Shown in pieces: positions 1,669 through 33,348 of a stretch of 41,569 bases of DNA. Source of the DNA: a virus. The DNA lies in the IMG/VR virus record IMGVR_UViG_3300048590_000304, positions 1-41,569 of that record; one strand, given 5' to 3'. The position numbers and the translations under genes are program-made. A model generated the notes under the pieces. That model was not told the DNA's origin. It saw only the letters and a program-made list of their open reading frames with translations, and searched no databases. Positions within the stretch are counted from its first letter, which is position 1, and the number at the start of each line of letters is the position of its first letter.

Positions 1669-3290
1669 GCGGCCGCCAGGCGGTCGATCAGCGCCACGTA
1701 CCTGGTGACGGTGTCCACGATGTCGTGGTGCGCCAGCGCGGCCGCGCGGTTGCGCGTCACGACGGCGGGCGTGTACTCGGCGATCCATGCGGCCAGGTCG
1801 TGGTCGGTCGGCTGCAGGCGGTGCGCGCGGCCGCTCCAGTTCGCCATCGCCGCGCGCCAGTACGCGTCGGTGCGGGGGTCCAGCGGGCCGTCGCCGATGG
1901 GGTCCTGGTACCTGCGGTGGTCCCAGGCGATCACGTGCGCGCCGCTGGCCACGCCCTCCAGGGCGGTGCGGCCCAGGCCCACGACCACGTCGGCGGTGGC
2001 CATCGCTGGCGCGGTGTCGGGCGCGTGCCGCAGGACGTCCAGGGTCAGGTTGGGCGCGCGGCCGTCGTCGCGCAGGATGCGCACGGCGGCCGCCAGGCGC
2101 GCCGCGGCGCCCTCGGCGTAGTTGCTCACCAGCAGCAGCCGCGCGGGCGCGCTGGGGTACGCGCTGGGGCGCCTGCGCGGCCGGTACCGCAGCAGGTCCA
2201 CGCCATTCGGGATCAGCGCGGCAGGCTGCACGTCCTGGCGTCGCAGGTGCGCGTGGACCTCGGGGCTGATGGCGACGTGGGCGGTGGCGTCGGGGTGCGG
2301 TCGCTCGGGCGTGAGGATGCCGTGGCAGGTCTGGATCACCACCGGCGCGTGCCGCAGGGCGCCGGGCACCGTGGTGGCGTGGTTGGCCAGCGCGACGTCC
2401 CACCGGCCGCGCAGCGCGGCGGGTGCCCGCAGGCGGGCAGCCAGGGCGCCGGGCTCGGGCGTCCACACGGTGACGTCGGCGCCGCGGCGCTGCAGTTCGG
2501 CGTGCATGCTGATCAGCCAGGACTCGCTGCCGCCGACGCGGTTCAGGCGGCCGTTCGTCAGCAGGATGCGGCGGCCGCGCAGGCGGTCGTCGCCCATGCG
2601 GGCACGGTCGAAGGCGCGCAGGCGCCGCTGCTGCGTGGCGCGGTCGCGCTCGGCGTGCTGGCGGCCGATCTGGTACGTCACGTCGTCCAGGCTGCGGTCG
2701 GCCTGGACGTGCTGGTGGGCGATGATGGCGTGGGGTGCGGCTCTGAAGGCGCCGCGGGATCGGGCGACCGCGACCAGTTCGCCGTCGCAGTAGTTGTGCC
2801 TGTACGCCTCGGCGAACACGGGCCAGCGTCCGTCGGCGGTGGCGCTGCCGTACCGCTGGACGTACGCGCGGACGATCACCGGGTGCGTGGCCGTGACGCC
2901 GTAGATGCTGCGCACGTTGTGCAGGTCGTTCGTGGCGATCACGCCCGCGTCGGGGTGCGCGCGCGCGACCTCCAGCACCGCGTCGTCCCAGCCGCTCCTG
3001 GGGTCGACGTCGTCACCGATCACCAGCACGTACGGCGCGCGCGTCAGGCCCCACGCGTGGTTCACCTTCGACGGGTACGTGGCGCGCGACCAGTCGGCCG
3101 ACGGCGGGCACACGAGCGCGTTCAGGCCCGCGGTGTGGATCGTCTGCCGGGTGTCGTGGTCGTCGGCGTCGACCAGGAACAGCAGCCGGTACGGGTGCGT
3201 CGTCGCCTCGCGCAGGCGGTCGGCCAGCGGCACGATGCGGTGCGGGCGCCACAGGACGGGCACCAGGACGTCGAACGTGGGGCGCGTCAT
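1665..3290 (-). CDS. Two-domain glycosyltransferase (GT2-like plus GT4-like)
   Basis: A 541-residue protein with two glycosyltransferase-like halves. Residues about 5-235 look like a GT-A fold: FDVLVPVLWRP at the start, VDADDHD, and the metal-binding acidic motif GDDVDP at 92-97. Residues about 240-535 look like a GT-B (GT4) fold: RRILLTNGRLNRVGGSESW (the loop binding substrate), IPNGVD at 360-365, and TALEGVASGAHVIAW near 442-456, the usual donor-binding ExxxxxG region. The ATG at 3290 overlaps the stop of a small membrane gene (ATGA); the 67 residues before it are out-of-frame noise. It sits in the replication operon, not the structural one. It could modify DNA bases, cell-surface glycans or virion proteins; the sequence does not say which. 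Confidence 0.85.
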   Translation of the reverse strand: MTRPTFDVLVPVLWRPHRIVPLADRLREATTHPYRLLFLVDADDHDTRQTIHTAGLNALVCPPSADWSRATYPSKVNHAWGLTRAPYVLVIGDDVDPRSGWDDAVLEVARAHPDAGVIATNDLHNVRSIYGVTATHPVIVRAYVQRYGSATADGRWPVFAEAYRHNYCDGELVAVARSRGAFRAAPHAIIAHQHVQADRSLDDVTYQIGRQHAERDRATQQRRLRAFDRARMGDDRLRGRRILLTNGRLNRVGGSESWLISMHAELQRRGADVTVWTPEPGALAARLRAPAALRGRWDVALANHATTVPGALRHAPVVIQTCHGILTPERPHPDATAHVAISPEVHAHLRRQDVQPAALIPNGVDLLRYRPRRRPSAYPSAPARLLLVSNYAEGAAARLAAAVRILRDDGRAPNLTLDVLRHAPDTAPAMATADVVVGLGRTALEGVASGAHVIAWDHRRYQDPIGDGPLDPRTDAYWRAAMANWSGRAHRLQPTDHDLAAWIAEYTPAVVTRNRAAALAHHDIVDTVTRYVALIDRLAAA

Positions 3291-12488: not shown

Positions 12489-13327
12489 GGGCGCAGCCAG
12501 CGAACGATTACGAGCCCGCTGCCTCCCGCGCCGGACGGTCCCGCGTTGCTGCCCGCTCCAGCACCTCCTCCGCCCGTGTTGGCCGTTCCGTTTCCGCCTA
12601 CGTTAGACCCACCGCCTCCAGAACCGCCCGTGGCGGTAGGCGTGAACGACGATCCCGCGCCGCCGCCCCCGACGGCCGATGGCGCACCTTCAGCTACGGC
12701 GTCCCCCCAACCTATGGATGCCAGCGTGACACCGTCGCCGCCCGCACCGTTGCCCGTGCTGCTGGCAACGCCGTTTCCGCCCGATGATCCAGCGCCGCCG
12801 CCGCCGCCTGATGCCCTAGTGCCGTTCGTTGGCCCCCCACGGCCCGTGCCCCCAGAGTTGCCAAGCGCCCCGACGCTGGTGCCAGCTGCTTGCGTAGCGG
12901 TGAAACTGTTTCCCCCGCCGCCGCCGCCCGAACCTCCGTTACCGCCTGCGGCACCGCTGCCGCCGCCCGCACCGCCGCCCTCGGCGCTCATTGCCCCGAA
13001 CGACGACGACCCGCCCGCGGCGCCTGAAGATGCAGACGTCCGCGCTGCGCCGCCCGCCCCAACGGTCACGGTCACGTTCCCCGCGACCGCGACGCTCTCA
13101 ACCGACCGAACGCGCCCAGCGCCGCCCCCACCACCGCGGTTTGCGGATGCGCCGCCGCTACCGCCGCCGCCGACCACGAGCACGTCAACCTCGCTCGGGC
13201 TGCCCGCCGCGGCCCAGTCCCAGGTACCGCTAGCCGTGAACACCTGATATTCGATGGTTGGCTCTGGCGGGGGTGGCGGCTCGACAGCGCGCCCAGCGCT
13301 CACGATGCCATGCCAGGCGTTGATCAC
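12485..13327 (-). CDS. Glycine-rich tail-tip or adhesin protein (280 aa)
   Basis: After a short start and a proline run (VEPPPPPEPT), the chain has the signature YQVFTASGTWDWAAAGSPSEVDVLVVGGGGSGG, then about 190 residues of glycine/serine-rich repeats, and ends in GSGLVIVRWLRP. This is the usual build of glycine-rich tail tip proteins and of gp38-like adhesins, where loops between glycine clusters contact the host. The GTG at 13327 overlaps the previous stop (GTGA). As the last tail gene before lysis it is a strong receptor-binding candidate. Its many Gly-Gly codons create long GC-skewed tracts. Confidence 0.75.
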   Translation of the reverse strand: MINAWHGIVSAGRAVEPPPPPEPTIEYQVFTASGTWDWAAAGSPSEVDVLVVGGGGSGGASANRGGGGGAGRVRSVESVAVAGNVTVTVGAGGAARTSASSGAAGGSSSFGAMSAEGGGAGGGSGAAGGNGGSGGGGGGNSFTATQAAGTSVGALGNSGGTGRGGPTNGTRASGGGGGAGSSGGNGVASSTGNGAGGDGVTLASIGWGDAVAEGAPSAVGGGGAGSSFTPTATGGSGGGGSNVGGNGTANTGGGGAGAGSNAGPSGAGGSGLVIVRWLRP

Positions 13328-14226
13328 GACCCGCTGCCTGTCGGCACGATGAAGTCGCCGTACGCGCGCCACGCGTTGCCGCCCAGCGACACCACGGTGA
13401 TGGCCCCGCGCGGCGTGATGCTCGACGCGCCGCCCTTCACCACCAGCGTCGCGCCACCGCCCGCGGTGATCACCACTGCGGCGTCGTCGGTGTCGTTCAT
13501 GATCACGGCCTGCACGCCGCTACGCACGCCTGATGGCAGCGTCACCAGCGCGTCGTCGGTGGCGCGGATGCCACCGCCCGCGTCGGCCACCGTGACGGTC
13601 GTGTCGGTGTCCACGTCGCGGATGTTCAGGTCCTGCGCGCGCAGGATCGGCGGGGTGCCCGCCGCGGTCAGCGCCGACCACGTGCCGGTCGTCAACACCA
13701 CCGTGGCCACCAGCACGTCGCCATCGGCCAGGGTCGTGCCCTCGATCAGCACCAGCACGCCCAGCGCGGTGCGGGGGCTGTACGTCACGGTTTCGGACGT
13801 GGTCTGGCCTATGACGTTGCCCTGTGCGTCGCGCGCCACGACCTCGGGGGTGGTGAACGCCTCGGCCTCGGTGGTGGCGGTGGCTCGCAGGACGATGCTG
13901 TGCGTGCCGTCGGCGAAGCCACTCCCCAGGGTGGCCAGCGCCAGCGCAACGCCTGCGCCCGCTTGGTCGGCGACGACGGGGGCCAGGCCGTCCAGCGTCA
14001 GGCCGACGACGGGCCCCGTGATGGTCGCCGTGCTGCCGCTCAGGTCCAGGGTGGGGTCGGTGATCAGACCGCCGGTGCGCACCAGCGCCTGCGCCAGCAG
14101 TTCGGCGCGCAGGTCCAGCGCGCGCGCGACGGCGTCGTGCCATTCCTTCACGTACCAGCGGCGTCCTGCTGCGTCCACCGGCTGGTCGGCCAGGTTGGCG
14201 GTGTACCTGTACGTCGGCGTGGCCAT
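13324..14226 (-). CDS. Tail-tip/baseplate protein with GSGS C-terminus (300 aa)
   Basis: A structural protein by position. The N-terminus (YRYTANLADQPVDAAGRRWYVKEWHDAVARAL) resembles tail appendage attachment segments; the rest is beta-rich (STATITGPVVGLTLDG, HSIVLRATATTEAE, GVLVLIEGTT, TTVTVADAGGG), ending in a small beta domain with NAWRAYGDFIVPTGSGS. The final SGS is shared with three other virion proteins. The ATG at 14226 has AGGAGG upstream. A role linking the tail tip to the glycine-rich protein is likely; exact family not recognised. Confidence 0.7.
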   Translation of the reverse strand: MATPTYRYTANLADQPVDAAGRRWYVKEWHDAVARALDLRAELLAQALVRTGGLITDPTLDLSGSTATITGPVVGLTLDGLAPVVADQAGAGVALALATLGSGFADGTHSIVLRATATTEAEAFTTPEVVARDAQGNVIGQTTSETVTYSPRTALGVLVLIEGTTLADGDVLVATVVLTTGTWSALTAAGTPPILRAQDLNIRDVDTDTTVTVADAGGGIRATDDALVTLPSGVRSGVQAVIMNDTDDAAVVITAGGGATLVVKGGASSITPRGAITVVSLGGNAWRAYGDFIVPTGSGS

Positions 14227-14235
14227 GCGTGCCTC

Positions 14236-17200
14236 CTAATCGGCGTCGATCACGTACGACGCGCCTTCGGCACCGTACGCGCTTTCGGTGGCCAGCGCCA
14301 CGTCGGTGGCGGGTGTCGCCAGGCCGGTGATCAGGCCGACGCCGGGGCTGGTGCCGCCACCGCCGGGGCTGGTGCCTGGCGGCGTTTCGACCTCCACGCC
14401 GCTGCCGTCGCCGCTGCTGCCGCTGCCGCCACCGCCGGGGCTGGTGCCGGTGGTGTACAGCACCACCAGGTCGACGGCGCGCTGCACCAGCACGCTATCA
14501 GGCGTCCGCGCGTCGGCGTACCTGTACGCCTCCATCAGGCCCGCCACCCCGAACGGCATCAGCAGCGTGTAGTTCAGGCTGTCGGGCGTCAGGTCGCTCG
14601 CGGGCGTCAGTTGGACGTCCAGGTACCGCCCGCGCGGCAGCAGGTTGTACCGCACGATGCCCTGCACGATCTGCTGCAGGTCGCTCTCGTTGACGGCGAA
14701 CAGGTTGACCTCGATGGGCGGTCCTTCGCGGCGGCCGTACAGCGCCTGCGAGAGCGCCGCGTCGGTGTCGTTCACTTCGTCGTACGTGGCCTGGTAGACC
14801 ACGCCGGTTTCCTGCCACACGCTGCCGTCGGTGTCCCACGACACCACGTGCGCCATCCACGGGCGTGCCGCGGCGGCGTTGTTCGTGCGCAGGCCGACGT
14901 TGGCGAACGTCACCACCAGGCCCTGCTGGCCGTCTGCCTGCTGCCGGTACTGCCACCTGATCGTCAGGATGCGCCCGAACGTCAGCGCCCACTCGCCGTC
15001 CAGCACGATGTCCAGCGTGCGCGACTGCCCAGGGGCGATGCTGAACGACCCGGTGAACGTCAGGCAGGGGCCGGTGCCGAACACGCCCGTCTGCGCGCAC
15101 CCGCCGTCGCTGCTGGCGTCCGCGCTGCTGGCGGTGCGCAGTTCGTACAGCCACGTCACAGTGACCTGCCCACCGACGATCAGCGGCGCGCCTTCGTCGT
15201 CCAGGAACGGCTGGAACTCGCCCAGCGGCACGACGGTGGCCCCGCTGGGCGTGTAGTCGGTCGGGCCGCGGCGCACCGCCAGGGTCGGCAGCAGCGGCGT
15301 GGCGTCCACGAAGTCGACTTCGGCGTGCGTCGCCGTCTGCGCGTTGATCACGCGCGACCCGTCCAGTGCGGGCGCGGGCAGCGGCAGGGCCACTTCGTTG
15401 CCCGCCACCACGATGTTGCGCACGCCAATGGCGGGCTCGCCCGCGCCGTCGACCGTGAGCGCGTGCGTCAGGTCCAGCAGCACGTCGCCCTGGATCAGGG
15501 ACGTGATGGTGCCGCTGGTGGTGGCCTCTAGGACGGTGGCGGTGATGGTGCCGCCCGTCGATCCTGGCCGCGTCCACGTCAGGCGGTAGCGCGCGCGGCC
15601 GACCTGCGTCCACCCGCTGCTGGTCAGCGCCTGCAGGGTCGCCGTGATGTCCTGGGGCACCCCAGGCTCCAGGGTCAGGGTGTACGGCACGCGGCGGCCG
15701 GTCATGACGCCGATGCTCCACCAGGTCGCGCCGCTGGCGCGCCGCGCCTCCTGGATGATCGTCCCGCTGATGACCAGCGCCTCGCCGTCGAAGTCGCCCG
15801 CGACCGCCAGGGTGGTGTCGGTGAAGTCGGTCCTGCTGGCCACCCCAAGTTCGGCGGGCGTCAGCGTGTAGCCGGGCCCCGCGCGGTACCCGCCGGGCGT
15901 CACGGGCACCGTGCCGCCCGCCCACGGCGGCGGCACCAGCACCACGTACCCCTCGGCGTCCACGGTGACGGCGTAGCCGGGGGCCCACTCGCGCAGATCC
16001 TCCAGCAGTTGCGCGATGCTGCGGCGGCGGCCCTCGGGCTGGCGCAGCACGATCCGGTCGGTGGTCAGCGTCCGCGTGTACTGCCCGTCGTCGTCGGTGA
16101 CGAACAGCAGCAGCGGCGGCGCGGGCCGCGCCCTGAACTCGGGGAACTCGACCGCCCACTGGTCGAACAGCCACTGCAGCACTTCCTGGGCGGTCATGGT
16201 GTCCTCGCCTATGGCCTGCTGCGCAGTGACGTACACGCTGCTGGGGAACATGCGGCCCAGCGCCGCCAGCGTGGACTCATACACGGCGGTCTGTTCGTAG
16301 ATCGGCAGGCCACCCGTGTCCTCGATCACGCGCAGCAGCGCGATGGGAACCTCTGGCCGCACGACGGTGGCGTACGACACGGTGGTGCCCACGCTGACGT
16401 CGCCGCGCGGCACCGTTTCCTGCACGCTGATGTCGGCCTGCGGGGTGCCCACCAGCGTGCGACCCAGGGTCGCCTCGTAGGACGACCTGATGCGGCGCGG
16501 CTGTTCCGACAGTCCCGGCGGCGGCGGCGGCGGCGGTTCTGGCGGTGGATACTGCTCGATTTCCGTACTTGTCACCACGAACGACGACACCGTGTATAGG
16601 CGGCCGCGCGTTCCAACGCCGCCAGACACGCCGCCGTTACCGCCATTCGAGAAACCCACCAGTCCGGGGCCAGCGACGTACCGCAGTTGCTCTGTCGGAC
16701 TGCCCTCGCCATCCACCAGTGTGGCCTCTAGGTCCCACGTGGACGGCTCTGCGTCAGATGCGATCCACACACGCACCTGTACCAGCGATGCGCCAGCGGG
16801 CACGCTCTCCGTTACCCGGAACCGCATGGCGTACTCCACGCCCGCGGTGAAGCCACCGAACGTCTTTGTGACGCTCTCGCCTATCCGGTTGCTATCGAAA
16901 GAGCCTGACCCGTACTGGCCCGCCCCGTTGACGACAATCGTCAGATTTCCCGTGGTGCCCTGGACGTTCGCGCTGTAGCCTGGCGCGCCCGCGCCGGGTA
17001 GTCGCCCGTGGATGCTGAATCCTCTAATCGTCGTGCTGTTCAGGGTTCCTTGATTCTCCCAGCGCCACACCACGACAGCGTCGAAGTTCGCCGCCTGTAC
17101 TTCATCCATCACGACCACGTTAGGGTCGTCCGACTGGTCGAACAGTTGATTGTCCGTCAGCGGGTGCGCGAGCGTATACGCGGTGCTGCTGGCTGCGCCA

Positions 17201-17289
17201 GTGAACTGGGCATTTGCCGCCCCCGAACTGCGGTATACGGCAAACTCGGCGGCATCATCGTCAAACGGGGGGAACGTACGGCTGGCCAC
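14236..17289 (-). CDS. Large tail-tip/host-specificity protein with N-terminal lectin-like domain (1017 aa)
   Basis: Residues 1-246 look like a LamG/concanavalin-type carbohydrate-binding domain (VEYAMRFRVTE, VQVRVWIASDAEPSTWDLEATLVDG, then a final strand), followed by a proline linker (247-260, PPPEPPPPPPP). Residues about 265-940 form the conserved tail-hub part (for example EVLQWLFDQWAVEFPEF, VTVDAEGYVVLVPPPWAGG, DFTDTTLAVAGDFDGEALVISG). Near the C-terminus lies a Ser/Gly-rich segment (TGTSPGGGGSGSS and PGTSPGGGG). The start is GTG at 17289 (TAGTG overlap). DNA for the first domain (about 16550-17289) looks less G+C-biased than the rest, suggesting domain capture. Confidence 0.75.
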   Translation of the reverse strand: MASRTFPPFDDDAAEFAVYRSSGAANAQFTGAASSTAYTLAHPLTDNQLFDQSDDPNVVVMDEVQAANFDAVVVWRWENQGTLNSTTIRGFSIHGRLPGAGAPGYSANVQGTTGNLTIVVNGAGQYGSGSFDSNRIGESVTKTFGGFTAGVEYAMRFRVTESVPAGASLVQVRVWIASDAEPSTWDLEATLVDGEGSPTEQLRYVAGPGLVGFSNGGNGGVSGGVGTRGRLYTVSSFVVTSTEIEQYPPPEPPPPPPPGLSEQPRRIRSSYEATLGRTLVGTPQADISVQETVPRGDVSVGTTVSYATVVRPEVPIALLRVIEDTGGLPIYEQTAVYESTLAALGRMFPSSVYVTAQQAIGEDTMTAQEVLQWLFDQWAVEFPEFRARPAPPLLLFVTDDDGQYTRTLTTDRIVLRQPEGRRRSIAQLLEDLREWAPGYAVTVDAEGYVVLVPPPWAGGTVPVTPGGYRAGPGYTLTPAELGVASRTDFTDTTLAVAGDFDGEALVISGTIIQEARRASGATWWSIGVMTGRRVPYTLTLEPGVPQDITATLQALTSSGWTQVGRARYRLTWTRPGSTGGTITATVLEATTSGTITSLIQGDVLLDLTHALTVDGAGEPAIGVRNIVVAGNEVALPLPAPALDGSRVINAQTATHAEVDFVDATPLLPTLAVRRGPTDYTPSGATVVPLGEFQPFLDDEGAPLIVGGQVTVTWLYELRTASSADASSDGGCAQTGVFGTGPCLTFTGSFSIAPGQSRTLDIVLDGEWALTFGRILTIRWQYRQQADGQQGLVVTFANVGLRTNNAAAARPWMAHVVSWDTDGSVWQETGVVYQATYDEVNDTDAALSQALYGRREGPPIEVNLFAVNESDLQQIVQGIVRYNLLPRGRYLDVQLTPASDLTPDSLNYTLLMPFGVAGLMEAYRYADARTPDSVLVQRAVDLVVLYTTGTSPGGGGSGSSGDGSGVEVETPPGTSPGGGGTSPGVGLITGLATPATDVALATESAYGAEGASYVIDAD

Positions 17290-17747
17290 TACGACCCACT
17301 ATCTTCGTCGGGCGCAGTGTCCAGCACCGTCCCACCGGGCCCGTACAGCAGGCTGCCGGGCGGCATGGGGTAGAACACGCACTCGACCTGCTGCACCCCA
17401 GGACCACCCGCGCCCACCGCCGTGCGCACCAGCACCAGCAGGCCCGCGCTCGCCAGCAGGTCGCCGTTATCCCAGTGGCTGATGCGCACCATGCGGCCGG
17501 GCCCGAACGTCTGCGCCAGGCGCGTGCCGTCGAACGCCTGCGCGGGGCCCTCCAGGTCGCTGGCAGCGATCATGACGGCGCGCACGTCGCTGAAGTTCCC
17601 GCGCGCGGCGCTGCCGGTGAACTGGTACCGCACGGGGGCCAGGCTGTCCAGGCGGCCTTCGATGGCCTGCGGCAGTTCCCGCGCATCGGGGCCCCACACC
17701 GCCAGGGGCGCACCGTCCAGGTCGCTGATCGTGAACGTGTTGGCCAT
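17289..17747 (-). CDS. Tail protein after the tape measure, SGS C-terminus (152 aa)
   Basis: By position (directly after the tape measure) this is a distal tail or tail-tip protein. The chain is mostly beta: TFTISDLDGAPLAVWG, VRAVMIAASDLEGPAQ, GRMVRISHWDNGDLLASAGLLVLVRTAVG, VECVFYPMPPGSLLYGPGG. It ends in DEDSGS, again Ser-Gly-Ser. Start ATG at 17747 shares one base with the tape-measure stop (TGATG). No clear family match. Confidence 0.7.
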   Translation of the reverse strand: MANTFTISDLDGAPLAVWGPDARELPQAIEGRLDSLAPVRYQFTGSAARGNFSDVRAVMIAASDLEGPAQAFDGTRLAQTFGPGRMVRISHWDNGDLLASAGLLVLVRTAVGAGGPGVQQVECVFYPMPPGSLLYGPGGTVLDTAPDEDSGS

Positions 17748-20700
17748 CAGGTCGGTGCCCCCAGCGCGGCGCGGCGAATGTCAGCGAACCCGACCTGCCT
17801 CAGGACCTCGCCGACGATGTCGCGCGTCTGCGCGTCCAGCGCCGCGCGCGTGCGCGGGTCCACCAGGTCGGTGCCGAACGTGTTCTGCTGCGTGACGTTC
17901 GCGGTGATCTGGATGCTGGGCGTGCTGCGCTGGCGGCGTTGCGCCTCCTCGGCCTGCCGTTCCTGCTGTTCGGTCTGGCGGCGGCCGCCGAACAGGCCGC
18001 CGAACAGGCTCCCGACGATGGGCAGGATGGCAGCGATCAGGCCCAGCGGGCCCGCGGCGGCGCTGCTGATCAGGCCCGCGGCGGGCCCGAACGACGCCAG
18101 CGCGCCGCCGACGCTGCCAGCAGCGCCCAGGGCCGCTTGGAACGCGCCGCCGACGTCGCCGTTCCTGATGCTGTCCACGAGGCTCACGGTGAACTGCGCG
18201 CCTGCCTGCGCGACGCTCAGAGCGAACGACTGCCCGGCCGCGCGGGTTTCCTCGGCGCTGAACTCGCCCGCATCCACAATCTGGTTCCCGGCCTCATCGA
18301 ACAGGCCGCGGAACTCGGAGCCGGTGGCGGGCCCAAAGATGCCGCGCAGGCTGGTGTCGGGCTCCACCGTCGCAGTGACGCCGGGGATCGGGATGCGCAC
18401 AGCGCTGGCGACCGACCCGGCGGCGGTGGCAGCGTCGAACAGGCTGATGGCTAGGCTGTCGAACTGCCGCGCGGCCTCAGGCGACAGGGCGCGCAACTGC
18501 GCCAGCGCGTCCTGCACTTCTTGCAACGGCGCGCCCGACTCGATCAACGCGGAGATCGTGTTGACGAACACCGCGTTGCGCGCCTCGATCAGGTCGCGCG
18601 CGGCAGCCGTACCGTCCGCCTGCGCCGCCGGATTCCGCGCAATCGCCGGTCGCAGGTCCACCGTCTCAGCCGCGCCAGCCAACTGCGCCGCCAACTGCGC
18701 TTCCGTCCGGTCGATCACCAGGCTCAGGCGGTCCGCTTCGCGTCGCAGGGCGCTGCCGAGCGGGCCCAGGTCGATCTCCTCCGAGATCAACGCGATGTCG
18801 CTGTTCGCGGTCTCGACCTTCGGGCCCAACAGCTCGCCGAGGTTGTCGCCATCGATTAGGCGTCCCAGCTCCAGCGACAGGGCGCGTTGCGCGCGGGTCA
18901 GGGGCGCGTCCAACTGGCCGATGATGGCGACGTCGGACGCAGGTCCGGTCGCGCGTTCGATGTCGATCGACACCCGTGCGATCTCGGCGGCGACGGCGTC
19001 GCGGCGGGCTCGCAGGTTCGCCAACTCGGCGTCGGTCACGGAGTCCGCGAAGTCAGTCAAGACCTCCCGAACCGCACCGTCCAACAGGGCGAACCGGCCC
19101 TCCAGCGCGGCCAGTACCGCCTCGGGCGTGCCCTCAAAGGCCGCAATCCGATTGAGCGCCGTGCCCGCCGCGGCGACCTCATCGAATACGTCGCCGACGG
19201 TACGCAACGCCCCCAAAGACGGCTGCGTTCCGTTCGCCAGCGTCAACTGCGACGGGGGGGGCCTGAGCGCTGGCGGTGGCGTGCGCGCCGGAACCGCCGC
19301 GAACACCGATCGCAGGTCCGCACGGAACGCCTCCAACAGCGTCACCGAACGGTCGTCCAAGCCGAACGACGCCAACTCAATCACGCGGTCCGCCTCGGCC
19401 GCGTCACCGCTGGTGATGGCCGTCAGCAGCGCCGTCAAGGCACTACCGCGACCATCCGTGAACACGGCCGACTCCAACGCGCGACGAATCGGGCCACTGT
19501 CCGTTGCGCGCTGCGCCAGGTCTAGAGCGCCTACGATCTGACCGAACTTCGCACCTGCGTCCTCGGCCTCCTGAACGGTCAGGCGGATTTGATCGCGGCC
19601 AACTTCGAACGCGGTCTTGACGCGCCCCGTGAGCGTCGTCGCCACGCTGTCCAACGCGCCTTCCAGATCGTCGTAGCCCTGCACCTGCGCTGCCGCATCG
19701 TTCGCGGTCGCGAGCGCATCCCGTAGCGACGGACCATCGCTGGTGCTGTCCCCAGCCAACTTGACGGCCAGGCTGCCAACAGCGATCACACCCAGCGCAA
19801 TCCACCCAGCGGGGCCCACCGCGGCTAGACCCGCGGTACGAAGCACAGCGAGGCCCGCCGTGATGCGCGGGATCACGGTCACGATCTGGCCCAGCACCAG
19901 CAGCAGCGGGCCCGCGGCGGCCGCCAGGCCACCGATCACCACCGCGGCCGTCTGAACGCCGGGGTTCAGGTCGGTGAACGCCTGCACGCCCGACCGCAGC
20001 ACCCGCACCACGTCGGTGGCCACCGGCAGGATGCGCTGCCCGATGGTCACACTCAGTTCGTTCAGGTCCTGCCCCAGGCCGCGCGTCTGGTTGGCGAACG
20101 ACTGCGACGTGCGCGCGTAGTCGCCGATGGCGTTCCCGCTCTGCTCTTGCGCAATCGCCAGGGTGGCGTACGCGCGCGCCTGCCGGTCTGTCTCAAACGT
20201 CAGGCCCTGCTGCGTCAACTGCAGCACCTTGGCCTCGACGTCGGACTGCCTGATGGCGATGCCCAGGGACTTCAGGCTCTCGGTTTCGCCCAGTAGCGCC
20301 TTGGTCAGCGCGGCGGACGCGCCCTCTGCGCCGCCGCTGAAGTTCGTGAAGGATGCCAAATCGACGGCCAGTTCGTTGACGCCCACGCTCAGTTCCAACG
20401 CGGCGTCCTGCGCGAACCCGAACCCGGTCAGCAGGTCGCCGGTGTCGCCCAGCAGGCGGCGCGCGTTCGTGCTGCTCAGGCCGAACGACTGCCCCAGGCG
20501 ATCCGCCGCGCGTTCGGCGTCGTCGCCGATGTCTCGGAACACGGTGGCGAACTTGGACGCCGTTTCCTCGGCGTCGCTGGCGGCGCGGATGCTGGCGACA
20601 CCGAACGCCACCAGGGGCGCGGTGACGGCGACGCTCAGTATCTTGCCGGTGCGGGTGAACGACGCGCCGATGCGGGCGAAGTCCCGCTCGGCGCGCGTCG

Positions 20701-20803
20701 CGGTGCTGGTGATCTGCTGCCCGACCTGCTGCAGGCCGGTGCGCAGGCCGCTGGCGTCCAGGCCGGTGCGCAGGACCGCCGTTCCCAGGTTCGTATCAGC
20801 CAC
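17747..20803 (-). CDS. Tail tape measure protein (1018 aa)
   Basis: The longest tail gene, with the N-terminus typical of TP901-type tape measures: LRTGLDASGLRTGLQQVGQQI, GKILSVAVTAPLVAFGVASIRAASDAEETASKFATVF. Hydrophobic segments follow at about 280-350 (TAAVVIGGLAAAAGPLLLVLGQIVTVIP and WIALGVIAVGSLAVKLAG), and another glycine/alanine-rich one near 920-960 (GSVGGALASFGPAAGLISSAAAGPLGLIAAILPIVGSLFGGLFGG). Length suggests a tail of roughly 150 nm by the usual scaling. Residues about 325-790 use TTG leucine codons unusually often. The start is GTG at 20803 with AGGAGG upstream. Confidence 0.92.
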   Translation of the reverse strand: MADTNLGTAVLRTGLDASGLRTGLQQVGQQITSTATRAERDFARIGASFTRTGKILSVAVTAPLVAFGVASIRAASDAEETASKFATVFRDIGDDAERAADRLGQSFGLSSTNARRLLGDTGDLLTGFGFAQDAALELSVGVNELAVDLASFTNFSGGAEGASAALTKALLGETESLKSLGIAIRQSDVEAKVLQLTQQGLTFETDRQARAYATLAIAQEQSGNAIGDYARTSQSFANQTRGLGQDLNELSVTIGQRILPVATDVVRVLRSGVQAFTDLNPGVQTAAVVIGGLAAAAGPLLLVLGQIVTVIPRITAGLAVLRTAGLAAVGPAGWIALGVIAVGSLAVKLAGDSTSDGPSLRDALATANDAAAQVQGYDDLEGALDSVATTLTGRVKTAFEVGRDQIRLTVQEAEDAGAKFGQIVGALDLAQRATDSGPIRRALESAVFTDGRGSALTALLTAITSGDAAEADRVIELASFGLDDRSVTLLEAFRADLRSVFAAVPARTPPPALRPPPSQLTLANGTQPSLGALRTVGDVFDEVAAAGTALNRIAAFEGTPEAVLAALEGRFALLDGAVREVLTDFADSVTDAELANLRARRDAVAAEIARVSIDIERATGPASDVAIIGQLDAPLTRAQRALSLELGRLIDGDNLGELLGPKVETANSDIALISEEIDLGPLGSALRREADRLSLVIDRTEAQLAAQLAGAAETVDLRPAIARNPAAQADGTAAARDLIEARNAVFVNTISALIESGAPLQEVQDALAQLRALSPEAARQFDSLAISLFDAATAAGSVASAVRIPIPGVTATVEPDTSLRGIFGPATGSEFRGLFDEAGNQIVDAGEFSAEETRAAGQSFALSVAQAGAQFTVSLVDSIRNGDVGGAFQAALGAAGSVGGALASFGPAAGLISSAAAGPLGLIAAILPIVGSLFGGLFGGRRQTEQQERQAEEAQRRQRSTPSIQITANVTQQNTFGTDLVDPRTRAALDAQTRDIVGEVLRQVGFADIRRAALGAPT
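18480..19840 (-). other. Compositional island inside the tape measure gene
   Basis: Across this stretch leucine is frequently encoded by TTG (seen as CAA on the plus strand, for example twice in the region around 18680), whereas flanking phage sequence uses CTG almost exclusively. The reading frame is uninterrupted. This points to an internal segment of the tape measure (about residues 325-790) with a separate history. Confidence 0.55.
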
Positions 20804-20824
20804 GCGCCCGACCTCCTGCGCTCA

Positions 20825-21558
20825 TCATGCACCAGCCAGCGCGCGAAGGCGTCCGAAATCCAACCGTGCGAGCGCGACGATGGGCAGGCGGGCCGCGTTG
20901 TCCAGCGCGTCGCGCGCGCTCGCCTGCGTCCAGACGCCTGGTCCGACGTCCAGGCTCGCCCACGGCGGCAGGCACTCCTCGGCCGTCCAAATCAGGTGCG
21001 CCTTCCTTGGCTTCGGGGCGTCGGGGTCGGTCGGGTCAGGCTTGCCGCCGTTGTGGTTGCGCATCGTGGCTTCCAGGCTCGCCTGCGGCCACGCGCGCCT
21101 GGCCTCCAGCAGCGTGATCCACTGCAGGTAGTACACGATCTGCACCTGCGTCAGGCGTTCGATCTGGTCGGGCGTCCAGCCGTACGTGGCGGCCAGGATG
21201 GCGAACTCAGGGCCCGCCGCGTGCGACTGGCCTACCCGTTTCCCTTGGCCTTGCCCTTCGGCGCGGTCGGGTCCTCGCCTCGGAACAGCACCGCCACCAG
21301 CCCGTCCACCGCCTTCATGCTCAGGTGCCGGTCCAGCCACTCGGCCGTGATGGCCTCGGGGTCCTCGGCGCGTTCGCGCAGCAGGTCGGTCAGGATGCCC
21401 AACTGCACCCGCGGCGGCTGACCCTCAAACCGCGCGGCCTGCGCCCACGACGCCTGGTGCCCCTGGAACGTCTGGCCGCCCAGGCTGATGGTCGGCGGGT
21501 CGTCCTGGATCAGCGCGTCCAGGGTGATGATGCGCGTGCTGCTACGGGTGGTCGGCAT
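20825..21558 (-). CDS. Tail assembly chaperone fusion made by -1 frameshift (G-T type)
   Basis: Joining 21558-21238 to 21238-20825 by a -1 shift gives a 244-residue protein. The downstream frame has no credible start codon of its own, but carries clear coding sequence (GPEFAILAATYGWTPDQIERLTQVQIVYYLQWITLLEARRAWPQ), as in G-T chaperones of siphoviruses. The slip site GGGAAAC is directly before the zero-frame stop. After the shift the chain continues KGN-RVGQSH. Its place just before the tape measure is where this pair is always found; the fusion helps the tape measure assemble. Confidence 0.85.
21232..21558 (-). CDS. Tail assembly chaperone, zero-frame product (108 aa)
   Basis: The unshifted product of the chaperone pair. 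Sequence: RIITLDALIQDDPPTISLGGQTFQGHQASW, then a helical part (VQLGILTDLLRERAEDPEAITAEWLDRHLSMKAVDGLVAVLF) and a basic tail GKAKGNG. The TAG stop lies four bases after the slip site. The ATG at 21558 has AGGAGG upstream. Expected excess of this short form over the fusion sets the ratio needed for tail assembly, as in lambda G and G-T. Confidence 0.85.
   Translation of the reverse strand: MPTTRSSTRIITLDALIQDDPPTISLGGQTFQGHQASWAQAARFEGQPPRVQLGILTDLLRERAEDPEAITAEWLDRHLSMKAVDGLVAVLFRGEDPTAPKGKAKGNG
21238..21244 (-). other. Programmed -1 frameshift slip site GGGAAAC
   Basis: In the zero frame this reads G GGA AAC, the canonical X XXY YYZ heptamer, followed by GGG TAG. Slippage gives CGG GTA GGC and enters the long downstream frame. 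The position at the 3' end of a tail chaperone gene is where this signal occurs in siphoviruses. Confidence 0.85.
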
Positions 21559-21823
21559 GGCTTCCTCCTGTGGGGTCGTACGCCTCGGTGGGCATCAGTT
21601 CGCATCCGGTGGTCCACACGCCTGCGTGCAGGTTCACCAGGTCGGCGGGCAGCGGCAGGCTGGCGACGTGCTGCCCTCGGGCGTCCAGCATCGCATACAC
21701 GCCAGCGTCCAGGCCCGCCGACGTCCACAGGGTGTCACACACGACGTCGCCCTGGTCGTCCGTGTGGACGGCCAGGGCGACGATCACGGGATCACCAGCC
21801 ACCTGGTAGCGGCTGGTCAGCAT
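21542..21823 (-). CDS. Small hypothetical tail-region protein (93 aa)
   Basis: Lies between the major tail protein and the tail chaperones. The chain is beta-rich: PVIVALAVHTDDQGDVVCDTLWTSAGLDAGVYAMLDARGQHVASLPL. The ATG at 21823 shares one base with the major tail protein stop (TGATG); the long upstream frame is a shadow. Its 3' end overlaps the chaperone start by 17 bases and covers that gene's ribosome-binding site, which implies coupled translation. Function unknown. Confidence 0.65.
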   Translation of the reverse strand: MLTSRYQVAGDPVIVALAVHTDDQGDVVCDTLWTSAGLDAGVYAMLDARGQHVASLPLPADLVNLHAGVWTTGCELMPTEAYDPTGGSHADHP

Positions 21824-22566
21824 CAGGACCCGCTGGCCAGCAGGTCGGTGCGCTTGGGCGCGCCTTGCCCTTGGAACGTCCAGGACGCGTCCAGCACGCC
21901 GGTGGCGGGGGCGTCGACCTGGTAGGAACGGATGCGGGCGCGGCCTTCGTACACGCGCGCGGGGTCGCCCGCCTCGTCGGCGTACACGACCTTCACCCAC
22001 ACTTCGCGCTCTTGGAACGAACCGGCCTCGACCTGCGCCAGCGCGTGGTCGCCCGCCTTGTAGCGGCCGGTGCGGGGGATGCTCCAGCCTTTCGACGTGG
22101 CTTCGTCCTCGTCCCACACGGCCCCAGCGAACCGCGCCTCATACGACGCGGGCGTGAGGGTGTTCACGTTGTCGTTCACGGCCAGGTTCGCCGACTCGGT
22201 GCCCAGCACCCGGTGCAGTTGATCCCACACCGCGGTGTAGTCGTCGGCGATCCCGGCGGGGATGCCCGGCTGGTCGCCCGCGACGGCGTCGACGGGCACC
22301 GCGCTGGGCGTGCTGGTGATCGTCGTATCGGCCGTGACGCGCACCAGGACCGTGTCGGCCCCGTCGGTGAACGCCAGAATCAGGTTCTTGCGCAGGGTGT
22401 AGGACCCCGACGCCACGGCCAGGTTCAGGCTCAGGGCCCCAGCGGCGGCGGTGGTGCCGACGGTGATGGTGATGTCGGCGGGTTCGGTCGCCAGCGCGCC
22501 GATGGCCACGGCGTCGCTGACGAACACTTCGGTGTTGCGTCCACGGGCGAACGTCAGCAGGCTCAT
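21823..22566 (-). CDS. Major tail (tube) protein, SGS C-terminus (247 aa)
   Basis: Position between the tail-terminator gene and the chaperones, and size, fit the tube subunit. The sequence starts MSLLTFARGRNTEVFVSD; the middle contains an inserted beta domain (ADITITVGTTAAAGALSLNLAVASGSYTLRKNLILAFTDG), and the end has RVYEGRARIRSYQVDAPATGVLDASWTFQGQGAPKRTDLL-ASGS. The phrase 'W.F.GQG.P' near the end is common in tube proteins. ATG at 22566 with AGGAGA upstream. The C-terminal Ser-Gly-Ser matches the capsid protein. Confidence 0.8.
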   Translation of the reverse strand: MSLLTFARGRNTEVFVSDAVAIGALATEPADITITVGTTAAAGALSLNLAVASGSYTLRKNLILAFTDGADTVLVRVTADTTITSTPSAVPVDAVAGDQPGIPAGIADDYTAVWDQLHRVLGTESANLAVNDNVNTLTPASYEARFAGAVWDEDEATSKGWSIPRTGRYKAGDHALAQVEAGSFQEREVWVKVVYADEAGDPARVYEGRARIRSYQVDAPATGVLDASWTFQGQGAPKRTDLLASGS

Positions 22567-22574
22567 GCGTTCTC

Positions 22575-22958
22575 CTATTCGGTGATCGTCAGGATCACCT
22601 GGCGCAGCATGCCCAGCCGGTCGTCCGCCGGTAGGGGCACAGGTGCGGGGGCTCGGAACGTGGCGACGACCCTACCCGTGGCCGATTGTAGCGCCCCGGC
22701 GGGCGTGCCGTCGTGTTCGCTCAGGCGCACCGTCCAGGACCGCCCGATGCCGACCTCGTGCCGGTACGCGGGCAGGACCTCCAGCGTCGGCAGGTCGTCC
22801 ACGTGCGCCTCCAGGCCGGTGCAGGTGATCGACTCGGGCAGGTCGCCGTACCCCACGGCGGGCCGGTCGAACGCGGGGCCCAGGTCGGGGTCGCGGTACG
22901 TGCCGACCAGGTCGGCCAGCAGCACCCGCAGCCGCTGCGCCAGTTCGGGGCCGGTCAT
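22575..22958 (-). CDS. Tail terminator-like protein (127 aa)
   Basis: By order (after the gp10-like protein and before the tube protein) this is the tail terminator or completion protein. It starts with an amphipathic helix (GPELAQRLRVLLADLVGTYRDP) and continues as beta strands (VLPAYRHEVGIGRSWTVRLSEHD, GRVVATFRAPAPVPLP, RQVILTITE), the alpha-beta pattern of that family. ATG at 22958 overlaps the previous stop (ATGA). Confidence 0.65.
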   Translation of the reverse strand: MTGPELAQRLRVLLADLVGTYRDPDLGPAFDRPAVGYGDLPESITCTGLEAHVDDLPTLEVLPAYRHEVGIGRSWTVRLSEHDGTPAGALQSATGRVVATFRAPAPVPLPADDRLGMLRQVILTITE

Positions 22959-23425
22959 GCCTCACCCCGCGGCAGGGCCTGCAGGCGACGCAGGTACGCG
23001 CCGGTGAACACGCGCTGCATGCGGTCGCGCACGGGCACCAGGTAGATGTTCCGTGCCGGGTACGTCTTGATCCCGGCGGCCGTTTTCTGCCGGTACCCCA
23101 GCAGCACGGGCGCGGCGTACGCCACGCTGACGGTGTGCAGCCAGGCGACGTCCAGGCCGCCGGGGGCCTGGGGTTCGGGCTCGGCCGTGATCGACGACCG
23201 CAGGCGGCCGCTGTCGACCACGTCGCGGGTGGTGGGGTCGTTCGGCCAGGGCCACTTCGTCCTGGACGCCTCGGCCTTGGCGGCGCTGTCCACGAACTGG
23301 TTGGCCTCGGCGAACGCTTCTTGCGCGGCGTCCAGCAGCGCGTCGGCGTTGACCTGGATGGTCCACTCGCCACCCGGCCCGGTGATGCGGATGTTCGACT
23401 GGATGCCGCTGCGTCGGATGCTCAC
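22955..23425 (-). CDS. HK97-gp10-like head-tail joining protein (156 aa)
   Basis: The middle carries DALLDAAQEAFAEANQFVDSAAKAEASRTKWPWPNDPTTRDVVDSGRLRSSI, the 'tG.LR.SI' feature of HK97 gp10-like tail-completion proteins, followed by strands VAYAAPVLLGYRQ and a C-terminal basic helix (RMQRVFTGAYLRRLQAL). I chose the GTG at 23425, with GGAGGG upstream and a GTGA overlap; an in-frame ATG lies 15 bases further up. Confidence 0.75.
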   Translation of the reverse strand: MSIRRSGIQSNIRITGPGGEWTIQVNADALLDAAQEAFAEANQFVDSAAKAEASRTKWPWPNDPTTRDVVDSGRLRSSITAEPEPQAPGGLDVAWLHTVSVAYAAPVLLGYRQKTAAGIKTYPARNIYLVPVRDRMQRVFTGAYLRRLQALPRGEA

Positions 23426-23820
23426 GGTGCCGCCCTCCATGCGCCGTACAGCACGCTCCCCAACGCCTCGGCCACGGGCGACAGGGTTTCGGCGGGGCGG
23501 TCCACGATGCGCAGCACGCCGTCCTGGCCTTCGTACGTCATGGCGAACTCGACGCCGGGCACGACGTTGGCGGGCGCGCTCATGGGGTCCACGCAGGTGA
23601 TGGTCAGCAGCGCGCCGACTAGGCTTGCGCCGACCTGTTCGCGCAGGCTGTTGTACTTGCCGACGGGGGCGGGGTCGGCGATCACGACCAGCGCCTGTTC
23701 CTCGGTGGGGTACACGGGCTGGCCCGCGGCGTCGTACTCGATCACGTCGGGCGACACGGGCGGCACCCGCACCTGCCGGGTGATCGTCACCGTGGCGAAC
23801 ACGCCAGCGAACGGGCTCAC
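23422..23820 (-). CDS. Head-closure-like connector protein (132 aa)
   Basis: Order suggests a head-closure or head-tail adaptor. The chain is beta-rich (FATVTITRQVRVPPVSPDVIEYDAAGQ, ALVVIADPAPVG, VGALLTITCVDPM, VEFAMTYEGQDGVLRIVDRPAE), a small barrel pattern usual for stopper proteins. The start is GTG at 23820 with a GTGA overlap; the upstream extension is noise. No specific motif identifies it further. Confidence 0.6.
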   Translation of the reverse strand: MSPFAGVFATVTITRQVRVPPVSPDVIEYDAAGQPVYPTEEQALVVIADPAPVGKYNSLREQVGASLVGALLTITCVDPMSAPANVVPGVEFAMTYEGQDGVLRIVDRPAETLSPVAEALGSVLYGAWRAAP

Positions 23821-24170
23821 CACGTGGCCACCACCGCACCGCCCGCGTCGGCGGGCCACGCGTCGGGCACGTCCAGGCCCAGGCTGGCGTCGACGCGCGC
23901 CTGCTGCTGCAGGTACGCGTTCACCGCGTCGCCAGGGTCGCTGTACTCCAGCGCCGCGCCACTGGCCCCGCGCAGGCTCACGTACGCGTTCCACTGCGTG
24001 CTGAACAGGTGCGCCAGCACCACGTACGGCCGGTACACGTCGTCGCCGTCCGCGTCCGTGCCCTTGCTCAGGTCCAGCAGGGTCTCGGCCTCATCCGCGC
24101 TGGCGAACGGGGCGCGGGCCTGCACCAGCGCCAGCGCGTCGGCGGGGTCGGTCCAGTCGATCAGGGGCAT
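23817..24170 (-). CDS. Head-tail adaptor-like protein (117 aa)
   Basis: An all-helical protein (DPADALALVQARAPFASADEAETLLDLSKG, YRPYVVLAHLFSTQWNAYVSLRGASGA, DAVNAYLQQQARVDASLGLD) in the usual place of the gp6/gp15-type adaptor next to the connector genes. The helical character and the pattern 'RPY...A..L' with a later 'ADA' end fit this family broadly. ATG at 24170 has AGGAGG upstream. Confidence 0.7.
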   Translation of the reverse strand: MPLIDWTDPADALALVQARAPFASADEAETLLDLSKGTDADGDDVYRPYVVLAHLFSTQWNAYVSLRGASGAALEYSDPGDAVNAYLQQQARVDASLGLDVPDAWPADAGGAVVATW

Positions 24171-24179
24171 GCGTTCCTC

Positions 24180-25127
24180 CTACGCGCCGACGGCGGCGAC
24201 GATGGCCTGCGCGGCCCGGTCGGCGGCGTGGCCGTCGACGTGAGCATAGGCCATCGCCACGGCGGCCGCGCGCGCCTGCCTGGCGGCGTACGTGTTCCTG
24301 AGCGCCTGACGCACCCCAGCGCGCACGTCCTCGGGCTGGTCGACGTGCGGCCCCAAGCGGCTGCCCGCCCAGAACCGCAGGCCGTGGTGAACGTCGCGGC
24401 GGTAGATGCGGTGGTTCAGCACCACCACCGGGCGGCCGGTGCTGGCGAACTCGTACATCGTGCTGCTGTTGTCGCACGCGTACACGCTGGCGCGCTGCAG
24501 GACGCTGTCGAAGTCGGGCACGAACTCGATCCCGGCCGCTTCGTACCGCGGTGCCAGCGTCCCGGCGATGCGCGGGTGCGCGTGCCCCAGGATGCGCCAC
24601 CCCTGCCGATGCAGGTCCAGGAACGCGGGCAGGTACCGCGCCCACGCGCTGCGTGTCTCGGGGGCCACCATGCAGTCCCAGTGGAACGACACCGCCACCG
24701 TCGGCGGGTCGGTCAGATTGGGCGTGCGGTCGCCGCGGTGCCACGGGTCCATCTTGGGCACCCCGACCTGCACCTGCGGCACGCGGCTGCCTGCCTCACG
24801 GTACGCGCTGGCGGCGGCGGGGCCGGGCAGCACGTACAGGATCACGCCCGCGCGGTTGCGGCCACCCGCGTACGACGTGTGCCCCAGCAGGCGGCCGTCC
24901 TGGCCGCGGTACGTCTGGCCCGCGCCGTGTTCCATCAGGATGATGGGCCGCGCGTGGCCGCGGGCGGCGTTCAGGTCGCCGAACGATGCGACGACGGTGG
25001 GCCGGTCGCTGATGGTCAGGGCCGCGCGGGTGGTCATGAAGGCGCCCCGGTGGTCGGCCGGTAGGGCCTCCCACACGGGGCGCAGGTGATCAGCGAAGTG
25101 CCGCTCGGTCGCCAGGAAGTCGACCAC
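24180..25127 (-). CDS. CDP-glycerol glycerophosphotransferase-like (GT-B) enzyme in the head operon
   Basis: A 315-residue protein resembling TagB/TagF-type glycerophosphotransferases. Conserved-looking parts: IILMEHGAGQTY (His67, the usual N-terminal HG), then VPDFDSVLQRASVYACDNSSTMYEFASTGRPVVVLNHRIYRR (about 203-243), matching the 'D.SS..ydf...grPvv' donor-site motif. Related enzymes move glycerol-phosphate or sugars from nucleotide carriers. No membrane segment is visible, so it should be cytoplasmic. The GTG at 25127 follows the previous stop by five bases without a clear ribosome-binding site. Being encoded between capsid and connector genes suggests action on virion parts; host wall modification is the alternative. 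Confidence 0.75.
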   Translation of the reverse strand: MVDFLATERHFADHLRPVWEALPADHRGAFMTTRAALTISDRPTVVASFGDLNAARGHARPIILMEHGAGQTYRGQDGRLLGHTSYAGGRNRAGVILYVLPGPAAASAYREAGSRVPQVQVGVPKMDPWHRGDRTPNLTDPPTVAVSFHWDCMVAPETRSAWARYLPAFLDLHRQGWRILGHAHPRIAGTLAPRYEAAGIEFVPDFDSVLQRASVYACDNSSTMYEFASTGRPVVVLNHRIYRRDVHHGLRFWAGSRLGPHVDQPEDVRAGVRQALRNTYAARQARAAAVAMAYAHVDGHAADRAAQAIVAAVGA

Positions 25128-25132
25128 GTCGG

Positions 25133-25489
25133 TCAGGCGGGCGGGTCCTGCGGCGGGTCCTTGGCCGGAGCGACGGCTGCCTGCAGCGCGTCGATCAGGT
25201 CGGCCTTCGTGCCCCGCGGGCCCAAGTCCACGCCATGCTGCGCGGCCAGTTCCCTGATCTGCGGCACGGTGAGCACCGTCAGGTCCTCGGGCAGCGTCGC
25301 CTCCTGGGCGGGCTTGCTCTCGGTGCCTGGCCAGACGCGCCACCCCCGGGCGATCAGGTCGGCGGCCACCGTGTCGTCGGCGACCTCGGCCGCGGCGACC
25401 GTCCGCCCGTCCAGGCGCGCGGGCGCGAACTGCAGGCGCGTGCGCCGGTCGGTCTTGCGTTCGTACTGCGGGTGGTACAGCCGCGGCAT
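25133..25489 (-). CDS. SAP/HeH-like domain protein next to the capsid gene (118 aa)
   Basis: The C-terminal part, LTVPQIRELAAQHGVDLGPRGTKADLIDALQAAV, is a helix-extended-helix (SAP, HeH or Rho-N-like) motif, often found in small proteins after phage capsid genes. The N-terminal half is basic (YERKTDRRTRLQFAPARL). It may be a head accessory protein contacting DNA or the capsid interior. ATG at 25489 with AGGAGG upstream. The C-terminus is Pro-rich (PAKDPPQDPPA). Confidence 0.75.
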   Translation of the reverse strand: MPRLYHPQYERKTDRRTRLQFAPARLDGRTVAAAEVADDTVAADLIARGWRVWPGTESKPAQEATLPEDLTVLTVPQIRELAAQHGVDLGPRGTKADLIDALQAAVAPAKDPPQDPPA

Positions 25490-25503
25490 GCGTCAGCCTC
25501 CTA

Positions 25504-26529
25504 TCAGGACCCGCTGCCCGACGGCAGCGCCAGGCCGGTGATCTTGCCGTGCATCCACTCGGCCCCGTAGTCGATGCCCAACTGGCCGTACACCTGCCAG
25601 TCCATGCTCGACCCGGTGCGCGCCAGCGGCTCGACCAGGATGGTCTCGCCTTCGACGGGCAGGTAGCGGCCGCGGACGGGCGTCGGGTTCACCAGCACCA
25701 GGGTGTCGGTGGGAATGTCGACGTCGTACGCGCCCTGCGCGGGCACGTTCAGCACGCCGAACGGCGTGAAGTACGTGCGGGTCATCAGGCCGCCGATCAT
25801 GCGGTCCTCGCCCTGCCGGAAGTCCGTGGCGTACGCCGCGTTCAGCGCGCGCAACTGCGTGGGGTGGACGCCCACCAGCAGGCCGACCTCGGGCTGCACG
25901 CCGCTGTCCACGATCATGCGCTCGTACAGCCGCTCAATCAGGGTGCTGGACAGGGTCGCACCCGCGGCGTCCAGGACCGCGGTGCTGATGGCGGGGATGA
26001 TGCCGCGCATCTGCAGCGCCGACGCGGTGGGGTTCGCGGGCGCGGCGTACGCGCCGTTCCACGCGCTGTAGTTGTAGTCGCGGGCCACCTTCTTCAGCGC
26101 CAGTTCCAACTGCCGCTGCGGCACCGCGCTGTACTCGAACGGATCGGTGCTGCCCTGCGACAGCACGCCGTCGGCGCTCATGCGCCCCCGCTCGGACGCG
26201 GCCAGCATCGTGACGCTGACCTTCTCGTGGAACAACTGCACCACGTTCTCGTCCTGGTCGGGGGTGTACGTGTTCGCCGTCGGGGCGTTCGCGCCCTCCA
26301 GGATGGCGGGCTGCGTGGGGGTCGGCAGGTCGTAGTCGACCGTCAGGGGGAACTTGGACTGAACCGTGGGGGCCCAGCCGTTCCCAACGATCTGACCCTC
26401 GCCCATGGGCGACGCCTGGTACCCGCCGATCATCTTCAGCAGCAGGTTGGGGCGTTCGCCGAACAGGCGAAGGGTTCCCAGCAGGCCCTCGGCGTTCTGG
26501 GTGGTGGTGCGGGCGGCGGTTACGGGCAT
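25504..26529 (-). CDS. Major capsid protein, SGSGS C-terminus (341 aa)
   Basis: Size and place (after the scaffold gene) identify the HK97-fold capsid subunit, possibly near the SU10-type group. Features: NAEGLLGTLRLFGERPNLLLKMIGGY at the start, VQLFHEKVSVTMLAASERGRMS, a central helix LELALKKVARDYNYSAWNG, LLVGVHPTQLRALNAAYATDFRQGEDRMIGGLMTRTYFTPFGVLNVPA, and DTLVLVNPTPVRGRYLPVEGETILVEPLA. It ends LALPSGSGS. ATG at 26529 with TAGGAG upstream. It should be the most highly expressed late gene. Confidence 0.9.
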   Translation of the reverse strand: MPVTAARTTTQNAEGLLGTLRLFGERPNLLLKMIGGYQASPMGEGQIVGNGWAPTVQSKFPLTVDYDLPTPTQPAILEGANAPTANTYTPDQDENVVQLFHEKVSVTMLAASERGRMSADGVLSQGSTDPFEYSAVPQRQLELALKKVARDYNYSAWNGAYAAPANPTASALQMRGIIPAISTAVLDAAGATLSSTLIERLYERMIVDSGVQPEVGLLVGVHPTQLRALNAAYATDFRQGEDRMIGGLMTRTYFTPFGVLNVPAQGAYDVDIPTDTLVLVNPTPVRGRYLPVEGETILVEPLARTGSSMDWQVYGQLGIDYGAEWMHGKITGLALPSGSGS

Positions 26530-33308: not shown

Positions 33309-33322
33309 GTTCCTCCTGTGCA

Positions 33323-33348
33323 CGCCCCGGCTGTGGCGGGCCGGGGCG
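33323..33348 (-). terminator. 9-bp GC hairpin in the methyltransferase leader
   Basis: CGCCCCGGC pairs with GCCGGGGCG over an 8-base loop, just upstream of the AGGAGG of the methyltransferase gene. No T-tract follows, so partial termination, pausing or translational control are all possible. Confidence 0.45.

Follow-up and report, generated by a model that had tools for sequence, protein, structure and literature searches.

The analysed sequence is IMG/VR record IMGVR_UViG_3300048590_000304, a virus DNA of 41,569 nt with 72% G+C, referred to below as the window. Its late operon lies on the minus strand and runs in the order terminase, portal, MuF-like protein, scaffold-like gene, major capsid protein (MCP), SAP-domain gene, glycerophosphotransferase-like gene, head-tail genes, major tail (tube) protein (MTP), tape measure, a 152-aa protein, a 1017-aa protein, a 300-aa protein and Gly-rich proteins. 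Here, we examine four proteins of this operon that end in Ser-Gly-Ser (SGS), an ending that we refer to as a tag, together with two putative transferases encoded by the same phage. Megablast gave no phage match to the region, and no tRNA genes were found in the window.

SGS-ended proteins and transferases of the window

The MCP (25504..26529, minus strand) belongs to the SU10_MCP family (PF17236, E 1.4e-37, residues 8-334 of 341) and ends in LPSGSGS, while the MTP (21823..22566, minus strand; phrog_1407, E 3.5e-13, and PF06199) ends in LLASGS. The two other proteins have no family match: the 152-aa protein (17289..17747, minus strand), whose tail role is deduced from its position between the tape measure and the 1017-aa protein, ends in DEDSGS, and the 300-aa tail-operon protein (13324..14226, minus strand) ends in PTGSGS. 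All four C-termini, as listed in a first-pass annotation of this DNA, can be read directly in the sequence. Given the phage's own Ser and Gly frequencies, ~0.013 SGS ends are expected by chance in 45 genes; four were observed (P(>=4) ~1e-9). The PF06199 and phrog_1407 matches of the MTP stop at residue 238-241 of 247 and, overall, the conserved domains of the MCP and MTP end 6-9 residues short of the C-terminus, which indicates that SGS is an appended tail outside the folded domain. The Ser/Gly-rich segment that had also been reported in the 1017-aa protein does exist; however, it is internal, and since the protein ends in IDAD and its sister-phage homologue in FLDAD, it does not belong to the tagged set.

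The first transferase (24180..25127, minus strand; likely start GTG at 25127) is a glycerophosphotransferase-like enzyme of the GT-B type, located in the head operon two genes after the MCP. Its C-terminal half matches PF04464 (E 5.6e-5) with 22.7 bits, above the gathering cut-off of 22.1; the homologue in locus L048 reaches 36.0 bits, and those in L024 and L085 remain below the cut-off (21.3 and 17.5 bits). An alignment showed that the EHGAGQ, GHxHPR and DNSS motifs are conserved among four phage homologues; they resemble the motifs that serve catalysis and donor binding in TagF. The structure model (pLDDT 82) has a predicted GT-B fold, for which TagF (3l7l) was the top Foldseek match (E 9.9e-11; VIA Z 19.9, rmsd 3.9, 292 aligned). 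UDP-GlcNAc 2-epimerases tie with TagF/TarL in fold closeness, so that the fold does not designate a single donor; at the sequence level, Pfam matches PF04464 only, and the profile match to the epimerase 3beo has E 0.84. The second transferase (1665..3290, minus strand) is a two-domain glycosyltransferase (GT), with a GT-A-like N-terminal part carrying invariant DD and HxH motifs and a GT4-like C-terminal part (PF13439). Its structure model was of low confidence (pLDDT 57) and was not used. Both enzymes had been named in the first-pass annotation, and both assignments hold: the PF04464 match and the TagF/TarL-like predicted fold bear out the former, and the two recognisable parts the latter.

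Between the MCP and the transferase lies a small SAP-domain-like head gene (25133..25489, minus strand; PF02037, E 1.7e-4, narrowly below its cut-off). The gene of a Gly-rich protein (PF21722; 12485-13333, minus strand) immediately follows the 300-aa gene and overlaps it by 4 bases; its product is probably a tail adhesin. Outside the structural genes, an ORF at 5369-5860 (minus strand) ends in AGS, and its stop-site DNA GGGTCGTGATCGACGCC at 5369 is almost the same as the end of the 300-aa gene. The same phage also encodes a metallo-beta-lactamase-fold protein and an N6/N4 DNA methylase (6238-6969 and 31974-33323, minus strand).

Conservation of the protein ending in a sister phage

A sister phage, G046 (loci L137 and L215, 40 kb), encodes homologues of all four tagged proteins, and every one of them is SGS-ended. 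The MCP (69% identity) ends in STGSGS, the MTP (67%) in SSSGS, the homologue of the 152-aa protein (49%) in TTGSGS, and that of the 300-aa protein, which is 239 aa long with 56% identity across its first 207 residues, in GTGSGS. Moreover, both window transferases are retained (62% and 53% identity). The linkers have diverged between the two phages, and codons and stops differ in the genes compared (MCP, MTP and 152-aa protein). Given that SGS is kept despite these changes, and that the adjoining 1017-aa homologue keeps its non-SGS end, selection is judged from these alignments to act on the last residues of the four proteins and not on a DNA motif.

This comparison bears on the possibility that SGS is encoded only incidentally, by an element acting at the level of DNA or translation (coupled stop-start, reinitiation, programmed frameshift or recombination site). 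Listeria phage PSA is a known case of frameshift extensions on capsid and tail-tube proteins. The four ends in the window all share AGY-GGG-TC[C/G]-T, three of them overlap or abut the next start codon, and GGG accounts for just 16% of Gly codons. However, the sister phage forms its SGS ends with other codons and stops (GGT AGC TAA, GGC TCG TGA) and without the overlap context, other tight gene junctions in the window lack the shared motif, and the +1 frame extensions are mostly 9-31 aa with nothing in common, the 441-aa extension after the MCP beginning as an Arg-rich wrong-frame sequence. Since codons and context have changed in the sister phage, a DNA motif, translational coupling or a programmed frameshift is largely refuted, and we consider any such origin highly improbable. 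That the linker is the remnant of a lost C-terminal domain is not favoured either, because the linker diverges whereas GS persists.

Serine ends and transferases across capsid families

A single-sequence query with the MCP returned the identical contig only, and MCP relatives were therefore retrieved with an alignment query. Among 45 metagenomic records with SU10-family MCPs, a [GA]S end was found in 11/13 with a recognised transferase versus 5/32 without (p 2.5e-5), and one of these five (L043) was later shown to have a GT. PF04464 was detected only in records of this set with GS-ended MCPs. In L066, L067 and L068, GTs related to the GT-A-like domain of the window's two-domain enzyme lie a short way downstream of a Ser-ended MCP. 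The nearest enzyme-less relatives (L007 and L009, 44% MCP identity) keep the same gene order minus the enzyme, with the MCP and the SAP-like gene followed directly by the next head gene; their MCP ends in GDLL and their tail-tube candidate in GTAY.

Searching with the TagF-like enzyme and three homologues alone yielded 79 viral loci, many with MCPs from other families. Of ten Ser-ended proteins at these enzyme loci, six were assigned as major head (phrog_777, phrog_10, phrog_2263) and two as major tail proteins, and the other two have no known function. For phrog_777-type MCPs, a Ser end was present in 7/7 with the enzyme versus 2/9 others (p 0.003); for phrog_10-type MCPs, a [GA]S end in 14/14 versus 21/35 (p 0.003). 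Within the latter set, MCPs with 57-60% identity to the query and no recognised transferase (L229-L235) end in PAAP, and transferase-bearing cousins in AGS or SGS. In Rctr41k, where the enzyme follows the capsid gene, the capsid protein ends in AEGS and the MTP in LPGS, the sole two such ends among 14 genes. Overall, in the sets tested, which cover three unrelated capsid families, the TagF-like enzyme was always accompanied by a Ser-ended MCP. The first-pass annotation had named equal frequency of SGS ends in relatives without transferases as the finding that would count against its proposal; in the SU10, phrog_10 and phrog_777 sets, as in L007/L009, Ser ends are rarer in those relatives.

Two further kinds of ends were noticed in these loci. 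Some phrog_10-type MCPs with a GT4-type enzyme (L256, L262, L270, L279, L282) end in VVGSA or TGSA, where Ser is penultimate, perhaps as a variant of the tag. Proteins of phrog_779 (unknown function) adjoin capsid genes and are GS-ended in transferase-bearing phages (L191 17590-18477, L205 10882-11805); possibly, they are another surface virion protein.

The neighbours of the enzyme are also of note. In L024, a cytidylyltransferase-like gene (8697-9125; CTP_transf-like, PF01467, E 2.5e-11) and two GTs come after it. The genes after the MCP are, in L048, a GT4, a GT-like gene, a methyltransferase-like gene, an epimerase and the TagF-like enzyme and, in L085, the TagF-like enzyme, a methyltransferase and a rhamnosyltransferase-like gene. 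From their gene content, these sets resemble small pathways for decoration that are placed within the head operon. The cytidylyltransferase-like genes hint at phage-made CDP-linked donors, and none was seen in the window. L150, L166 and L179 also have such genes in the vicinity of the capsid genes and the TagF-like enzyme, and in L085 an ORF at ~14084-14787, after the decoration genes, resembles polysaccharide pyruvyl transferases by eye.

Glycosylated virions have been demonstrated for a handful of mycobacteriophages. In PMC12363180 and PMC12619734, the passages citing Freeman et al. 2023 (Cell Host Microbe 31:1216) report C-terminal O-glycosylation of virions for Che8, Corndog and Myrna, with the glycans of Che8 on its capsid and tail tube. 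The Che8 genome carries three GT genes (gp108-110); its MCP ends in KTGS and its MTP in SDGS, the only GS ends among 23 structural genes. Five more isolates with Che8-type GTs have Ser-ended MCP/MTP pairs: Jabbawokkie (DES/DES), Sbash (TAS/DGS), Wildflower (VGS/GDS), Poise (QGS/GGS) and Rabbitrun (DPS/EGS). The comparison phages TM4 (PAA/ISV), Giles (VTP/TAA) and Bxb1 (SVG/DVV) have no Ser end, and the pair in Bernal13 is AAD/TES. Given the Ser-ended MCP and MTP of Che8 and these five isolates, the determinant looks like a C-terminal Ser, mostly after Gly or Ala, which is wider than SGS.

A putative acceptor tag for virion decoration

The observed association comprises the presence of the tag in the window, its conservation in the sister phage, its recurrence in at least three unrelated MCP families and in MTPs, and its co-occurrence with transferases. 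Taken together, these observations suggest that the Ser-ended tails are probably acceptor tags modified by phage-encoded transferases. Here, a short transplantable tag, [Gly/Ala]-Ser-COOH on a flexible linker, would be carried by virion proteins exposed at the particle surface. Transferases made during infection would recognise this tag and use a Ser hydroxyl of the tail as the attachment point for a sugar or glycerol-phosphate, giving many decorated copies on capsid and tail; in the window, they would be the head-operon TagF-like GT-B enzyme together with the GT-A/GT4 enzyme at 1665-3290. The benefit would most likely be shielding or changed surface properties outside the cell. Since no animal link is known for this phage, environmental protection unrelated to antibodies, or altered adhesion, appears at least as likely as antibody evasion. 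The choice of Ser as acceptor, the role of the enzymes, the donor and the benefit are all inferred. The earlier proposal of an SGS acceptor served by the transferases is supported in its core by several independent sequence comparisons; its restriction to SGS appears too narrow, as the determinant looks like a C-terminal Ser after Gly or Ala.

Several points weigh against this reading, beginning with the fact that modification is deduced from an association of sequences. Many records are fragments, and head modules may share tag and enzyme by descent. De-duplication weakens the enzyme tests in the phrog_10 and phrog_777 families (p 0.009-0.09), and a phylogenetic independent-pairs test pointed the same way but lacked sufficient pairs (2.6 for, 0 against, p 0.25). 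When the ends of all genes were compared with GC-matched controls, as an unmatched version overstated the effect, the enrichment was modest (GS 5.6% vs 1.0%, p 0.007; Ser 16% vs 10%, p 0.05). Gaia and Nebkiss (cluster X) have an MCP ending in SSGS and an MTP ending in VGS, and the complete genome yielded no GT; these tags are then served by a host enzyme or an unrecognised one, unless the tag can have another role. Finally, Bangla1971 has a Che8-type GT, yet its MCP ends in RKA.

Some of these points favour the idea that the tails are unmodified, as flexible linkers or as assembly or anti-degradation tails, and that transferases accompany them through shared ancestry of the head module: the tagged Gaia/Nebkiss lack a recognised transferase, and the independent-pairs test is underpowered. 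We nevertheless regard this as unlikely, because Rctr41k and three unrelated MCP families all show the association, because tag and enzyme differ together between close relatives (L007/L009 and the window; PAAP and AGS/SGS in the phrog_10 set), and because the tags of Che8 coincide with the C-terminal glycans reported for it in the passages cited above. Alternatively, the transferases could act elsewhere, on a host wall polymer, on phage DNA or in superinfection exclusion, and be carried for other reasons. PF04464 enzymes normally build teichoic acids, and GT genes of temperate phages often alter the host surface; the untagged MCP of Bangla1971 fits this as well. Against it, the enzyme genes lie within the late head operon by the MCP in the window, L024, L048 and L085, and the constant pairing with a Ser-ended MCP would be unexplained, which makes such other targets quite improbable.

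Beyond acceptor tags in this phage, we tentatively propose a general virus-encoded decoration, in which the [Gly/Ala]-Ser-COOH tag may have arisen repeatedly among capsid and tail proteins that are unrelated to each other and be served, in many uncultivated phages, by transferases of several chemistries, including TagF-like enzymes adding glycerol-phosphate in a teichoic-acid-like manner; this extension is somewhat doubtful. What is new here is the occurrence of the tag on tail proteins and in further capsid families and, possibly, the glycerol-phosphate chemistry; no report of phosphodiester chemistry on phage particles was found in the literature searched. If the acceptor reading is right, a readable C-terminal tag would allow the phages that decorate their particles, and the proteins concerned, to be predicted from sequence, would provide a substrate rule for the enzymes, and would extend virion decoration to other capsid families and metagenomic phages. 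The TagF-like enzyme would then add phosphodiester chemistry to phage particles.

Among known systems, the TagF/TarL enzymes (PF04464, CDP-glycerol/CDP-ribitol transferases) share with the window enzyme the GT-B fold, predicted for the latter, the PF04464 C-terminal half and motifs of the His-Gly, HP and D-SS type, and the cytidylyltransferase gene after the enzyme in L024 is as expected for a CDP-linked donor. Unlike them, the window enzyme is ~315 aa long, has 12-13% identity, adjoins capsid genes and has no wall-polymer context. Gaia and Nebkiss have an MCP related to that of the window (34% identity) and, like the window, a Ser-ended MCP, MTP and minor tail protein, whereas no transferase is recognised in them and the window has two. 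In both isolates the minor tail protein is Gly-rich and ends in SSGS. The tagged genes of Nebkiss lie at L003 18203-19885, 5515-6486 and 8074-8661. The window differs from Che8 in the number of its tagged proteins (four), in the family of its MCP, which is unrelated, and in having a TagF-like enzyme within the head operon; its GT is not a close homologue of gp108-110. Like Che8-type virions, it combines a Ser-ended tail on both MCP and MTP (SGS/SGS in the window, TGS/DGS in Che8) with a phage-encoded glycosyltransferase, the GT4 (PF13439) and GT-A-like enzyme described above.

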